Part shown: in pieces, positions 23,579 through 30,555 of the stretch | How the letters are laid out: each line of letters opens with the position of its first letter | Numbering within the stretch: position 1 is the first letter of the stretch | NCBI GenBank assembly: GCA_032358255.1 | Contig: JAULBX010026252.1 | Location: forward strand, 1-50,633 | From: Heterotrichella gracilis | Lineage: Eukaryota; Sar; Xanthophyceae; Tribonematales; Xanthonemataceae | Direction: 5' to 3' | Length of the DNA stretch: 50,633 bases | Position numbers and translations under genes: made by a program | Notes under the pieces: model-generated | Seen by the model: the letters and a program-made list of their open reading frames with translations, nothing else | Told to the model about the DNA's origin: nothing | Database searches by the model: none

Positions 23579-26500
23579 ATGGAGCCGCTGCGCCCACAGG
23601 TGCGGGGCGGGAGGGGTGTGGATTAATGAATGGGTATTGGTCGCCTCCAGGAATGCCTCCATATGGTTCATGAGTAGGCTGGCATTTCATGAATTCGGGT
23701 GCTTGGCGCTGCTCTGGCACATGTCCTGCACAGCATGCCAAGAACAGCGCACATGCCATCATGGCCCAGGGCCAGCCTGCACACCCCAAACCCTAACCAA
23801 ACCCTAACCAAACCCTAATACCTACTCCCTAAACTCTTATCCTAAACCCCAACCCCACTTCTGTCCACAGGACCATGGCCAAATGGCTGCTGAGCCTGCG
23901 CACCCCCAAACTCAAAACACCAATCCCTAAACCCTAATCCCTGATCCCACCCCACAGGACCAGGCCCAGATGGCTGCTGAGTCAGCACACCCCACATTTG
24001 CGCCCGCCACCCTGGCGCACCACAATCTGGGCCCCCGGAGGGTGTCCCTGCACCGCCTATTTGACCCCCCCGAAATTGAGGTGGAGGATTCCGGAATGTC
24101 CAAGGAGGGGATCCCAAAGGGGCGGGTCCCCAGCGCAACATCGGGGACCGAGGATCCCTCAGTGAGACCCACCAGCATGTCTCGAGCGTACAACCCCGAT
24201 TTCTCGAGGCTGTCCATTGGGCAGCACCAGAGCGAGTACGAGTTTCTGAAGGAGGCGCGGCGCAAGGGGAGGAATTGGACCCTGGACAGGGGGGCGGGGT
24301 TTTACATGGAGGAGCGGCAGAGGCACCATAGGCCAAACCTGGTGGAGACGGGCAGGTAAGTAGGGTTTAGGGTTGAAGTGCATGCAAACTGCACGGCCTG
24401 CTGAAGGTATAATTCTCACAGTTGACAAGTTGCTTGTCCAAATGCATGGGTTGATTTTCCCTGTCTTACCTTCGTGGAATTCTAATTCCCTGCTGCTGCC
24501 CCATTGCAGGCACGCTGGCAAGTCCAATGTGAAGATGGTGGGGCTGGAGTACTACCTAGGCTACCATTTATTCAAGCGGGGTAAGTACCTTAATAAGGGG
24601 GACAGGGGACAAATGGTGTACACCTAGAAGGGTTTGGGGCGTGACAGAGCATGCCAGTCATTGGTGTGCCTATGCTGGAGCTGTTACACAATGAGGGCTG
24701 AGATGCTGGGTGGCGCAGACCATGCAAAACTGGCTGCTGTGCGGTATTATAGGATACAATGGGTTATGTGTGTCTGCTGCAACGGTGCACCTTTGGGTCA
24801 ATTTTCAGGGCCTTTAATAGATACACTGTACAGTAACTCTGTACAGTACAGAGTTACTGTACATGGGCATGGCAGGATCCAATCTACCCATGTGCTGACA
24901 TTTGCTGCCACCCCATGTGCAGATTTCTTCATCTCAATGCTTGCCCTGCGCCTGCCCATCATCCTGTGCATCGTGGCGGTGTACTACCTCATTGTGTTCT
25001 TCTTCTGGGGTACGGTGTGGTACGCGGTGTCAAGGTGGGTGGTGGCATGCTGGGAGCACGAGCAGGTGGAGAATGGATGAGGGAAAGTGGATGCACACTG
25101 TGTGCCATACACACTGTGTGCCATACACTGTGAAAGTGGATGCGCACCGGGTATGGCCGCTGTTGGTGCGGGGTTATTGGCCCATGTCACTAATGGCCCA
25201 TCACGAAAGATTATTCTCCATACCATTGCCTGGGATGTGCCTTGCTTTTTGTGGCTTGTAGCCGCCATCCCATGCTCACTACTGGACATGAATGACACTT
25301 GCGCCTTCAAAGTACACTGGAACATGGTGGTGTACATATCTCTTGGCATGATCTCTGCTCCCTACACCTAATCACCGTACGCTCCCCTGCAGGATGTACC
25401 CGTCATGCGTGTACAACATGGATGATTACATTGAGGGCTTTGTGTTTGCAATCGTCACGGAGCAAACCATTGGTGAGTGTAAACCAACAGCTGGATGGCA
25501 CAAACGACCCTAAACCCCAAAGACCTGGTGAGGGGTGGCACACACCTGCCCAACAAAGTGCACTGAGTAGCCATCAAAGTTGTCCGTTGGTCATTGTTGC
25601 AAGGTGCTTAACCACAGAACCATACATAATGGTGCCTTTCAGCAAAGCAACCGGCAGCAATTGCACACAACCCATGCGCTTGGAAGAGAGTGCACTTCTG
25701 CGGCAATTGCTGCCCCTTGCTGTCCTACCTCGCCGCACCCCACCAAATTAAACAATTTTCAGTTGATGTGCAATGAACTCAAACGTCCACACCACGCTGC
25801 AGGCTATGGCAACACGGGCCCCAACGGCTGCTGGCTGGCTGCTTTTTGTGCTGGGCATTGATTTGCCTATTCATGTTACTTTACAAGCCGCTGATGCATA
25901 TTTTGTGCCTTTTGGCAAAGCAACAGACAGCAAAAAGGTTGATACAGGCCATACTCTGGCTCTGTTTATCTTACCCAGCCCCTTGCCCACCCCATGTTGC
26001 AGGCTATGGCAACACCGGCCCCAACGGCTGCTGGCTGGCTGCCTTCGTGTTGGGCATTCAATCGGTGATTGCAGTGGTGGCAAACGCGGTGATCATCGGC
26101 ATCGTGTTTGCGCGCATCAGCCACCCCAAGCAGCGGGGGAGGACGATATTCATATCGGACTCGGCGGTCATTGCGCGCAGGGACGGGATCCTCAAGTTCA
26201 TGTTCAGGATTGCAGACATCCGCCAGGCGCAGGTGGGGATTGAATAAGGATAAGAATAATAATGGGGGTTTTGTATTTGGAAATAAGTTGATTGGTCCCA
26301 GGGATTTGGCGTTTGCTTTTGCCCATACTCAAGTTCGTGTTCAGGATTGCCGACATTTGCCAGACACAGATGGGGATCCCTGGGTGTGGGTTTGGCCCCT
26401 GCTTTTCCCTTGTAAATGGCAAATGGTGGATCTTCTATATGTGATTCTTGTGAATGCCCTCCTTACTTCGCAACACCCCCATGAATGTGTTCCCCCTTGC

Positions 26501-29500
26501 AGGTTGTTGCGGCCCATGTGCGCGTGTACCTATACATATGTGGGCAAATTGCTACCAATGCAAAAGGGAATACCTGAAGGATTTGATAAGAACGAAAGGA
26601 ATATAGCTCCTAAAAACATCCATCGTCTTAAACAAATAAAACTGTACTGCTGGGGGTTTATATAAAAAAGAAAGTATTTCTATTTCTACCTTGCAGGTTG
26701 TTGAGCCCCATGTGCGTGTGTACCTGTACACCTGGGGTCAGGGGAGGACGACAGCAGAGGGCGAGTTCATCCCCTGCAGGATCGAGTCGCTCAACATCGG
26801 ATACATAGACGGCATGCTGCTGCTGCCTCTCACTATTGAGCACACAATTGACGAGCGCAGCCCCCTGTATGGCCACACGCACGACTCTCTGGTGGTGAGG
26901 CAAAACCCTAGACAAAACCCTAGGCAAAACCCTAGAAAGCATGCTGCTGCTGCCCCTCACTATTGAGCACACAATTGACGAGCGCAGCCCCCTGTATGGC
27001 CACACACACGACTCCCTTGTGGTGAGGGCAAAACCCTAGCCAGAATTGTATTAACTGGCAGTCTTCCCTACAGTTGCAAATTTCTCATTTTTGTCCCTTG
27101 ACCCCTGATCCGCCTTGCCCATTCAGGCCCTCGGGGCGGAAATCATCGTCACATTTGAGGGGAACACGGAATTTGGCAACCCCTTCATGGCCCGCCAGTC
27201 CTACCTGCCCTCAGAGATCCATTGGGGCCACGCGTTTGCGCAGATCATCAAGGCGCCCCTGCCGGGAACAACACGCTACAGGATCGACATCACAAAGTAA
27301 GCATTGGAAGAAAACCTTGAAACATAAGCCATGATGAAGCTTTACACCCTGGTGCATGACCCCAAGCCCTGGTGTCAGCATGCAGCCCTCCTGATGTAAT
27401 TTCGGCTACCTTGTCTCAATCCCACTGTGCTTGACATTGAGCCCCTACACCAGCTCGGCCCCCACTTTTCATCAGTCGCCCCCAACAAGGAGTGATTTAT
27501 CCCCCTTGCCCCAGGTTCCACGACATTGAGCCCCCCCCCTGTGGGTGATCCCACATCAGAGCCCTCCTTGATCTGATTTATTCCTCTTGCCCCAGGTTCC
27601 ACGACATTGAGCCCCAGACCGGCCTGCCCCTACTGCCCGCCGCCCCCCTGTCCCGCCTGCTTGTGGCCACCAAGGGGAGGACGGTACCCTACCCGCTGCT
27701 GGGGGAGAACACGCTTGCGCTGTCGGACTGCATGGTGGTGGTGCCAAGGGGGGGAAAGCTGGTGCTCATGGCAAGGTGAGGACCCGAAAAATGAGTGAAA
27801 ACTGAATTTAGTGATACTGGGTTTGAGGAAATTGTGATAGGGGTGTCCGAGTGCATGCACCTCTGGTGGCCACCAAGGGGAGGACGGTGCTATACGCACT
27901 GCTAGGGGAGAACACGCTTGCGCTGTCAGACTGCATGGTGGTGGTGCCCAAGGGGGGAAAGCTGGTGCTCATGGCAAGGTGAGAGCCTCAATACCAGTCA
28001 AAACCGTGTTTTGGTGGGATGTTTTAGGGGGAATTTCGAGGGTGGTATCCCTGTGCATGCTCTAGTAGTGGCCACCAAGGGGAGGATGGTAATACACCTC
28101 CTGCTGGGGGAGAACTCGCTGGCCCTGTCGGACTGCATGGTGGTGGTGCCAAGGGGGGGAAAGCTGGTGCTCATGGCAAGGTGGGAACCGGAAGTCCAGG
28201 GACAACCTTGGGGTAAATTCTCTGGGTGGCGTCGTCGGACTACAAATTGTTTGCGGTCAATGCAATGTCCTGGGTTTGTGGAATGGGAATTTAATAGTTA
28301 TAAACCCAAGAGGTTGCTCCCTGATGCCAAATGCAATCCACCCACGCACGCGCACCCCCTCCCTTTGTAACCAACCATTCCACCCTTTTTCCGCCATGCA
28401 GGGTGGCCGACACCTACCCCACCCAGATGGTGTCGGTGGATGTGGCGGGATATGTGTACCGCTGGAAGACTCGAGTGTCCCCCGATGGCCACCCCCTGCC
28501 CTTTGAAACTAGAGTATTACGCTTTGCCTACGAGGGGGCTTCGGTGGAATCGTTCAATTCAGACCTGGCGCCCCGCATTCACCTGCGGTTACCTACACTG
28601 GTGGAGCACGTGATTGATAAATACTCCCCCCTGGCATCATGGCTGCAGCCCGGGGGGTTCCATGCGGATGCTGATTCGGAGATTGTGCTGGTGGTAAGTC
28701 TTGACCCCAAACCCTAACCGCCAACGCGACCACAAACTCCACAACCCATTGCAACCTGTCACCCAAACCCTAACCCAAACCCTACCGACCGCAGCCCGAG
28801 TTGTACCGCTCCTGCGACTCCCAGATCCATTATAACCCTACCTGTAAACGCCACCCACCCATTGCAGCCTGTCACCCAAACCCTAACCCAAACCCTACCC
28901 ACCGCAGGCGGAGGCGTACCGCTACTGCGACTCCCAAAACATGCTGCGCCAGCGCACCTACAACGTGTTCAACCACATAAAGTTCAACCACCGCTTCGGC
29001 AACATCGTCACGCGCCCAACCGAGAGCCCCGACCTCAAACCCCGCGTGGATTGGTCCAAATTCCACGACACGGTGCCCCTCAAACCCACCCCCGCTGCGT
29101 CCCTAGCGGCACCCACCACCAGCCATCGGCCCCCGGTACACCGGGAGAGGGCGACGGGCCACGGGGGCAAAACCGGGGGGGCGCTCAGCGTGAGCCCGGA
29201 TTTGACCCCCGGCTTGTTGGTGAACGTCCCCAAGCAGGACGGCGGGGATCCCAGGAATGGCGGTGGGGATCCCGGGGATGACGATGGGGATTCTGTGGCT
29301 GACACGGAGGCCAGCAAGGCCACGCAGGTTGGCACGCCGGATGGGTCCTTCCACTTCGGGCGGCCCACCACGCAAGGTAGGGCTGGTGGGTGGACAGTTA
29401 TTTCGTGTGCCTGAGCACATGGTATGTGGGGTGCCTGCCTCCCTAGCATGGCTAACCCCAGTTCTTGCGGTATAGCTACAAGCAACCCTGCAGCACATAC

Positions 29501-30555
29501 ACTCAATATTGTTGATTTTGTTACTTGGCAGCCTGTCTCGCATGAGACAAGAAGGGTTTTGGGTTTAGGGTTTAGGGCTGTTTACAGAGAGGAGGAAGGT
29601 ACGCATTCCTTGCATGGTCACCCTGTCTACTCTGCTCACACATGCCTCGCTTCCCCTGCAGACGTGGAGACCTTCCACTCGCCCCACATGGGAACGGGCG
29701 AGCCAGGGGAGCAGTCCTCACAGGACTTCAGCCGGGAGTACTCGCACTCACACTCGGCATACTCGCAGTACCACGCAGGGGAGGTGGACGACGATGTGCT
29801 CATGCACAATGCTGACATGGCCAGGTGCGGGCTGAAAACCCTAACCCTAAACTTCAAACCCTTACCTTAAACAGTACCATGCAGGGGAGGTGGACGACGA
29901 TGTGCTCATGCACAATGCAGACCTGGCCAGGTGCGGGCTCAAAGCCTAATGCTTGCTTGCATCTTTGATTACCTTTGCAAGGGCTTTAAACGTCATGTTG
30001 GGCTGCACTGATTACCCTTGCTAGGGTTTCAAACAAGTCTCCAGTGTTCTTGCTTCCCAGCAGTAGAACATACATGTCTCCGCTCAGACACCAACGCATG
30101 TTGTGCTGGCACGGTTGGCTCACGTGTGGAACCTGGCACTCACCCTCCCATCCCATCCCCCTGCGCAGGTATGCCCCTCGCATTGAGGAGCCCCTGAATG
30201 AGCAAGGTGCGTGCTCCAACAACCCTAGCGTTTTATGGTGATCAGGGCGTTGAGATGCTGAGGTGCTTTGCCATCATCTGCTGTAGCTGCCCCACCCGCT
30301 GACACACGCCATCCTTATCTGCTCATCAATCACTGCTTTTGCTGCCCCCCCCCTCCCTCTCTCCCCCCCTGACGCTCCTCCCCTTGGAATACCCCAGGTA
30401 CCCACCACCACCCTCCCCTGCCCGGTGGCGTGGCGTCCTCCCCGGACGTTGCCGACCCAACCTTCATGCCCCGGAGGGACAACGACTGGGCGCAGCAACG
30501 CGCTCTCAGGCACGTCATGTTCCAAGTGGACGACTCTGAGGGAGCCTCTGAGTGA
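23579..30555 (+). CDS. inward-rectifier (Kir) K+ channel with two tandem cytoplasmic domains
   Basis: Exons: 23579-23599 (tentative start), 23958-24355, 24510-24580, 24923-25034, 25393-25472, 26003-26232, 26697-26894, 27127-27296, 27596-27775, 28402-28693, 28908-29376, 29662-29824, 30169-30206, 30398-30555. From 23958 on, 2559 nt stay in frame to TGA (852 residues, numbered from GAC). TM1 about 160-190 (IILCIVAVYYLIVFFFWGTV). The P-loop has both Kir cysteines (PSCVYN and PNGCW) and the filter TEQTIGYG at about 215-223. TM2 (QSVIAVVANAVIIGIVFARI) leads to HPKQRGRT, the PIP2-site region. Cytoplasmic domain 1, about 268-424: FMFRIADIR, LPLTIEHTIDERSPLYG, SYLPSEIHWGH, ITKFHDI. Domain 2, about 463-625: LVLMARVADTYP, LPTLVEHVIDKYSPL, DSEIVLV, FNHRFGN, DWSKFHDT. 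A Gly/Asp/Ser-rich tail follows. Known Kir subunits have one such domain. Location is presumably plasma or internal membrane. The N-terminus is uncertain. Confidence 0.92.
23870..23990. repeat. copy of Kir exon start
   Basis: The acceptor and first codons of exon 23958 (CACAGGACCAGGCCCAGATGG) are echoed at about 23867-23900 with CACAGGACCATGGCCAAATGG and GCTGCTGAG. The upstream copy is an acceptor-side duplicate. Confidence 0.8.
24827..24863. repeat. perfect 17-bp hairpin with 3-nt loop
   Basis: Arms 24827-24843 and 24847-24863 (TGTACAGTAACTCTGTA and its complement) are exact, with loop CAG. It lies in the Kir intron just before the TM1 exon (24923). Confidence 0.9.
25793..25848 (+). repeat. 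decayed upstream copy of the Kir selectivity-filter exon start
   Basis: The acceptor plus the start of exon 26003 (second GYG residues, NTGPNGCWLAA) is duplicated here. After about 43 exon bases one base is lost relative to the real exon, so splicing to this copy would give GYGNTGPNGCWLAAFCAGH and then a stop. The intact copy begins at 26003. Confidence 0.9.
26189..26376. repeat. copy of Kir exon 26003-26232 end
   Basis: The region coding LKFMFRIADIRQAQ and its donor (26189-26240) recurs at about 26327-26376 with several substitutions; the copy has lost the GT donor. Confidence 0.85.
26494..26745. repeat. copy of Kir exon 26697 start
   Basis: CTTGCAGGTTGTTG..GCCCATGTGCG.GTGTACCT occurs at 26494-26535 and again at 26691-26731, the true exon start. 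The upstream copy has a usable-looking acceptor but soon diverges. Confidence 0.85.
26813..27032. repeat. about 90-bp duplication of Kir exon 26697-26894 end with donor
   Basis: The stretch coding MLLLPLTIEHTIDERSPLYG through HDSLV and its GTGAGG donor (about 26813-26903) recurs at about 26938-27029 with very few changes. It lies directly downstream in the intron. Three tandem copies of AAACCCTAGAC/GC lie between. Confidence 0.92.
27500..27612. repeat. two copies of the acceptor of Kir exon 27596
   Basis: GCCCCAGGTTCCACGACATT is present at about 27508-27527 and at 27589-27608. Only the right copy leads into the open exon; a weaker echo (GACATTGAGCCCC) lies at about 27434. Confidence 0.9.
27662..28190. 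repeat. three ~120-bp copies of a Kir exon end (linker/domain 2 start)
   Basis: The part of exon 27596-27775 coding VATKGRTVPYPLLGENTLAL through GGKLVLMAR plus donor is repeated at about 27866-27985 and 28066-28190. All three remain open and retain a GTGAG/GTGGG donor, with residue changes (VLYALL, VIHLLL). The second and third copies lack a correctly phased acceptor, so they look intronic. Confidence 0.92.
28698..28900. repeat. interstitial telomere-type repeats with duplicated exon start in Kir intron
   Basis: CCCTAAC/CCCTAAA runs at 28710-28785 and 28872-28900 lie in a ~110-bp duplicated block: GTCACCCAAACCCTAACCCA..CGCAG then a GAG.TGTACCGCT.CTGCGACTCCCA exon-like part, at about 28757-28822 and 28869-28937. 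Only the second leads into the real exon (28908). Similar short CCCTAAA runs occur in introns of most genes in the window. Confidence 0.88.
29772..29940. repeat. copy of Kir exon 29662-29824 end
   Basis: The last ~55 nt of the exon (coding HAGEVDDDVLMHNADMAR) with its GTGCGGG donor recurs at about 29872-29940, almost identically. Confidence 0.9.

Follow-up and report, generated by a model that had tools for sequence, protein, structure and literature searches.

A subfamily of green-algal Kir channels with two cytoplasmic domains in tandem, identified from a gene in the Heterotrichella gracilis assembly

A Kir channel subunit with two consecutive cytoplasmic domains

We analyzed a 50,633-nucleotide stretch of DNA (the window), which is an entire contig (JAULBX010026252.1; C374 here) of the 68.5 Mb, 903-contig Heterotrichella gracilis assembly GCA_032358255.1. 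It contains a gene for an inward rectifier potassium (Kir) channel whose subunit carries two consecutive cytoplasmic C-terminal domains, termed CTD1 and CTD2. The same tandem recurs across green algae, and sequence, fold prediction, and phylogenetic trees together show a single duplication of the domain that predates the divergence of the sampled green-algal lineages, with both copies retained.

The Kir transmembrane domain was recognized by Pfam IRK with 54.6 bits against a cut-off of 22.7, and the best match of the first part of the protein among PDB sequences was GIRK2 (E 1.8e-43). Aligned to GIRK2, the spliced protein has its TIGYG selectivity filter at residues 219-223 with a cysteine on either side, and the expected cytoplasmic domain follows the second transmembrane helix (TM2). 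Over the whole protein, Pfam IRK_C matched with E 3.5e-49 in two separate stretches. Searched alone, CTD2 gave 52.8 bits against a cut-off of 22.5, covering profile positions 2-164 of 174, and found Kir6.2 among PDB sequences at E 3.4e-10. This second match departs from one cytoplasmic domain per subunit, which is the usual Kir layout and not a strict family rule. The domains were placed as follows.

24514..26127, + strand: Kir transmembrane domain, Pfam IRK, residues 135-262, spliced across exons 2-5 (E 1.3e-14)
26152..27611, + strand: CTD1, residues 271-425, spliced (Pfam IRK_C profile)
27657..29081, + strand: CTD2, residues 441-635, spliced across exons 8-10 (IRK_C, E 5.1e-14; PDB match; alignment of relatives)
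27678..27728, + strand: linker motif RTVPYPLLGENTLALSD leading into CTD2, nearly invariant (43 aligned CTD2 sequences)

CTD1 and CTD2 of the window protein are 27% identical. The CTD2 of a relative was predicted to have the Kir cytoplasmic fold. Chance resemblance is ruled out by the Pfam profile, the PDB sequence matches, and this predicted fold. An original prediction, made from the window's letters, had proposed one Kir subunit with two consecutive CTDs, to be checked by a Pfam search on the joined protein and open to refutation by the fold of residues about 463-625. The profile found the second domain, the relative's predicted fold does not refute it, and the proposal is further borne out by the matches to solved Kirs, by at least 61 database proteins, and by two trees (below). 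By its CTD1-CTD2 order, the placement of its CTD2 in the CTD2 clade, and its linker motif, the window protein is, on sequence grounds, a member of a tandem-CTD subfamily of green-algal Kirs.

Gene model and exon structure

In our splice model, the Kir gene comprises 13 exons on the + strand, with AG/GT at the internal borders. The joined frame stays open as far as the stop at 30553-30555 and gives a predicted product of about 850 residues. The gene starts at or upstream of 23958, and exon 1 is an uncertain true start. The exons are listed below.

23958..24355, + strand: exon 1, N-terminal cytoplasmic segment, first Met at 23970 (splice model)
24510..24580, + strand: exon 2, HAGKSNV..., N-terminal segment preceding the first transmembrane helix (TM1) (splice model)
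24923..25034, + strand: exon 3, slide helix and TM1 (splice model, GIRK2 match)
25393..25472, + strand: exon 4, extracellular Cys, pore helix, and first part of the filter (splice model, GIRK2 match)
26003..26232, + strand: exon 5, rest of the GYG filter, second Cys, TM2, lipid-contact segment HPKQR, and CTD1 start (splice model, GIRK2 match)
26697..26894, + strand: exon 6, CTD1 middle (joined frame)
27127..27296, + strand: exon 7, CTD1, G-loop region up to ITK (joined frame)
27596..27775, + strand: exon 8, CTD1 end (FHDI) and CTD2 start (joined frame; relatives align through it)
28402..28693, + strand: exon 9, CTD2 from VADTYPTQ to EIVLV (joined frame)
28908..29376, + strand: exon 10, CTD2 end (DWSKFHDT) and beginning of a low-complexity tail (joined frame)
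29662..29824, + strand: exon 11, C-terminal tail (joined frame)
30169..30206, + strand: exon 12, C-terminal tail (joined frame)
30398..30555, + strand: exon 13, C-terminal tail with stop codon (joined frame)

Exons 5-10 join in frame, and every landmark of the original prediction lies where it had been placed. These landmarks do share one joined coding frame, but not the unbroken frame that had been described, as they are split over spliced exons. The interval it had delimited, 26003-29376, is also only part of the gene: 23958-25472 encodes the N-terminus, TM1, and pore helix, and the tail continues to the stop at 30555. Exon 8 opens with FHDIEPQ, the last part of CTD1, and closes inside CTD2 at LVLMAR; within it, FHDIEPQTGLPLL at the end of CTD1 runs unbroken into RTVPYPLLGENTLALSDCMVVVPRGGKLVLMAR at the start of CTD2. 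With both domains inside one exon, CTD2 is not a neighboring gene. In alignments of full-length relatives, too, CTD2 follows directly on CTD1 through the exon 8 region.

The introns between 23865 and 29946 contain diverged copies of the adjacent exon borders, splice sites included. All 10 local duplications found at the settings used, with lengths of 42-350 bases and identities of 81-95%, span a splice site; two overlap, and one depends on the assumed exon 1 start. When the same duplication pairs were placed at random, a mean of 4.9 spanned a splice site, and 10 was reached in 1 of 5000 trials. No such duplications were found at L002, a single-CTD Kir locus of the same genome. Two additional copies of the exon 8 end, which encodes the CTD2 start, lie at 27863-27980 (copy b) and 28063-28181 (copy c), and differ from exon 8 by 5 synonymous and 3 non-synonymous codons and by 2 and 6, respectively. 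Both look like decaying copies, since only the real exon 8 preserves an intact VPYPLLGEN. Plant-type telomere-like repeats (AACCCTA) were also seen in introns and upstream sequence, at 23760-23960, 26900-26940, and 28720-28900.

Distribution of the tandem among database proteins

Three protein searches returned 42, 99, and 170 matches (the best 120 of the 170 listed), amounting to 228 different proteins. Scoring in these searches was limited to proteins with short exact words in common, and in two of them to the 7995 and 7994 best candidates, so that a tandem layout outside green algae is possible. We mapped these proteins and the window protein, 229 sequences in all, with CTD1 and CTD2 profiles. 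Both domains were nearly complete and in order in 62, CTD2 was partial in 45 (40 of these records being under 500 residues), 89 had a single domain, and 33 were fragments. The tandem is therefore found in at least 61 database proteins besides the window protein, a recurrence that excludes a peculiarity of this genome.

Named full-tandem carriers included Coccomyxa, Chlorella, Micractinium, Auxenochlorella, Helicosporidium, Prototheca, Nannochloris, Picochlorum, Apatococcus, Parachlorella, Trebouxia, Elliptochloris, Myrmecia, Symbiochloris, Botryococcus, Ostreobium, Chlamydomonas incerta, C. schloesseri, Edaphochlamys, Gonium, Tetradesmus, Haematococcus, and Chloropicon primus, which we take to represent Trebouxiophyceae, Chlorophyceae, one ulvophyte, and Chloropicophyceae. 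Micromonas-type algae probably carry the layout too, because P0156, a fragment from Micromonas commoda, shares 65% identity over 269 aligned positions with P0154, which holds both domains. In two relatives, both domains stand in an uninterrupted frame on a contig that barely exceeds the coding sequence (P0001, 608 residues on 1878 bases; P0003, 605 residues on 1947 bases). P0143 has a complete frame with both domains, and its record name has a form that we take to mark an assembled transcript.

The 89 single-domain rows consist of animal, bacterial, and unnamed Kirs together with a few truncated or doubtful green records. Among the latter, P0054 and P0156 stop within CTD1, P0066 stops just past the start of the linker, P0083 ends in an apparent CTD2 start, and P0157 ends in a doubtful frame. 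None of these five demonstrates a genuine single-CTD member of the family, though such a member may exist. A simple N-terminal pattern (DRG...) matched 32 of the 62 tandem proteins, from which we draw no conclusion, some records having no N-terminus.

Origin of the duplication

Tree 1, built from 64 domains, separated three groups: 23 CTD1s (100/95), 23 CTD2s (99/92), and 18 other Kir domains (98/86). Tree 2, with 60 domains, added Chlorophyceae, Chloropicon, and a Micromonas-like protein, and again gave three groups: CTD1 (22 domains, 100/93), CTD2 (22, 100/99), and single-domain Kirs (16, 100/93). Both trees are unrooted, and the sisterhood of CTD1 and CTD2 requires a root among the single-domain Kirs, some of which are bacterial; with the root there, a single internal duplication that predates the divergence of the sampled green lineages is sufficient. 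CTD2 was nested in no single-domain group in either unrooted tree, which rejects its having been borrowed from another sampled Kir line. The nearest single-domain row to the green tandem clades in both trees is P0118, a 342-residue Kir on a long branch.

Mean pairwise identity is 60% among CTD1s, 43% among CTD2s, and 26% between the two domains of one protein. That the duplication is old and kept, as originally proposed, agrees with the low identity of the window's two domains, the recurrence in database proteins, and the separate clades of both trees. A hint in the same prediction toward prasinophytes did not hold up. Both domains of the window protein cluster in tree 2 with Coccomyxa, Elliptochloris, Trebouxia, and Apatococcus (98/97 and 98/94), and neither groups with Chloropicon or the Micromonas-like sequence.

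Two other Kir loci of the assembly were included. L002 (contig C229) is a second, distinct Kir gene of the same genome with one CTD, and it was placed with the single-domain Kirs in both trees. L001 (contig C321), used only as the bacterial Kir row of tree 1, is AT-rich and intronless by eye, with a KirBac-type gene next to a decarboxylase-like frame; it is probably a bacterial contaminant contig.

Residue differences between CTD1 and CTD2

Residues were counted over the 62 tandem proteins, and the linker and DTYPxQ motifs were taken from 43 CTD2 sequences. Residue roles and numbering (GIRK2 and Kir2.1 positions) are presumed to carry over from animal Kirs, and single-column counts depend on the alignment, as one Arg column shifted between two alignments. 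CTD1 is basic at the positions of GIRK2 R201 (61/62), K194 (61/62), and K199 (42/62), and of Kir2.1 R218 (56/62). At the R201, K194, K199, R218, and K200 positions, CTD2 is basic in only 1, 3, 3, 3, and 1 of 62. Judged by these residues, CTD1 is shown to retain most of the lipid-coupling side, which CTD2 does not. The CTD1 of the window protein has Arg, Lys, Gln, and Arg at the positions corresponding to K194, K199, K200, and R201 of GIRK2, so that three of four putative phosphatidylinositol 4,5-bisphosphate (PIP2) contacts are basic.

CTD2 has features of its own. Its entry motif VPYPLLGENT is near-invariant and it also carries the DTYPxQ motif. A pore-facing acid at the E224 position occurs in 50 of 62 CTD2s and 42 of 62 CTD1s. 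A 9-residue insertion in the CTD2 of the window protein has no counterpart in the other 42 aligned CTD2s.

A possible second cytoplasmic ring

We think it fairly likely that this green-algal subfamily, with its once-duplicated CTD, uses CTD2 as an added regulatory ring. Four subunits would form a normal K+ pore, and their CTD1s would make the usual ring beneath the membrane, with most phosphoinositide-coupling residues retained. The short, almost invariant linker would fix the position of CTD2, and the four CTD2s would make a second ring under the first. Released from the membrane and PIP2, this ring could lengthen the cytoplasmic vestibule, sense a cytosolic ligand or blocker, and relay the signal to the CTD1 gate. 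In its fullest form, the proposal is of a double-decker Kir present in green algae since early Chlorophyta, in which the upper ring is lipid-coupled, the lower ring acts as a lipid-independent sensor or second gate, and the ion path is extended; this we offer tentatively, as possible rather than probable. We know of no stacked double-ring gating architecture in another K+ channel.

Several observations weigh against a stacked ring. The lipid-contact K200 position is basic in only 7 of 62 CTD1s. Divergence is faster in CTD2 than in CTD1, as would also suit a looser role, and the E299 position is acidic in 18 of 62 CTD2s versus 55 of 62 CTD1s. In the window protein, CTD2 has Ser at the E224 position and Ala at the R228 position, which may leave its pore wall non-acidic there. 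In the main alternative, CTD2 would serve as a peripheral module for regulation or docking, packed outside CTD1 or binding partners, with no ring on the ion path. The rapid evolution of CTD2, its rewritten G-loop region with a mostly non-acidic E299 position, the missing E224 acid in the window protein, and the long insertions tolerated in some CTD2s (P0012 and P0142) are all in keeping with such a module, whereas the short, nearly invariant linker and the E224-position acid kept by most CTD2s speak against it. We regard a peripheral CTD2 as unlikely, if worth serious consideration.

We consider it improbable that CTD2 instead ties channels together, by pairing with the CTD2 of a second channel or with the cytoplasmic domain of another Kir subunit to give higher or mixed assemblies. 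Kir cytoplasmic domains assemble into tetramers, and L002 would be a possible partner in the same genome, but it falls apart from the tandem family in both trees. There is very little likelihood that the tandem is an annotation illusion, with CTD1 and CTD2 being separate genes or a pseudogene fusion, and transcripts ending after CTD1. A splice model could be misled by the decayed exon-border copies in the introns, yet exon 8 holds both domains, and the tandem recurs in database proteins that include the uninterrupted frames on the 1878- and 1947-base contigs and the transcript-named P0143.

Comparison with known channels

The observation is real and broader than the single gene first noticed, being an old, conserved layout common to many green algae. 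Tandem proteins are already in databases, where the green-algal records are annotated as Kir, "E set domain", or hypothetical (Chlorella vulgaris P0035 as a G protein-activated Kir), under names silent on the two domains. A survey of algal and viral K+ channels (PMC3369850), whose phylogeny is restricted to pore modules, inventories CvK1-7 of C. variabilis, the species that carries tandem family member P0011; we saw no mention of a doubled cytoplasmic domain there. The same is true of PMC8619664 (TPK evolution), PMC12332018 (K+ channel modularity), and PMC4685582. We found no description of the tandem-CTD Kir layout in the open-licence literature searched, and the layout seems to have gone unremarked so far.

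Few ion channels have been studied as thoroughly as Kir channels, whose cytoplasmic ring plays a central part in rectification and gating. A natural, old, and widely retained duplication of that domain is a ready-made experiment, as CTD1 shows the residues kept for membrane-lipid contact and CTD2 those kept without it. It also points to an apparently unexamined Kir family in Chlamydomonas relatives, Chlorella, and Coccomyxa, for which roles in K+ balance, osmotic response, and membrane potential are testable.

The pore domain, the TIGYG filter, the two extracellular cysteines, and a CTD1 with the lipid-contact segment are shared with the animal Kirs GIRK2 (Kir3.2), Kir2.x, and Kir6.2. Animal Kirs, however, have a single cytoplasmic domain per subunit, and no CTD2 was present in animal-named proteins among the matches listed. 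Bacterial KirBac channels also have one cytoplasmic domain, and the four bacterial-named proteins listed from the 170-match search (P0187, P0198, P0217, and P0219) end 1-9 residues past it. The full tandem layout of the window protein is shared by green-algal proteins such as Chlorella vulgaris P0035, Coccomyxa P0002, Chloropicon primus P0150, and Picochlorum P0022.

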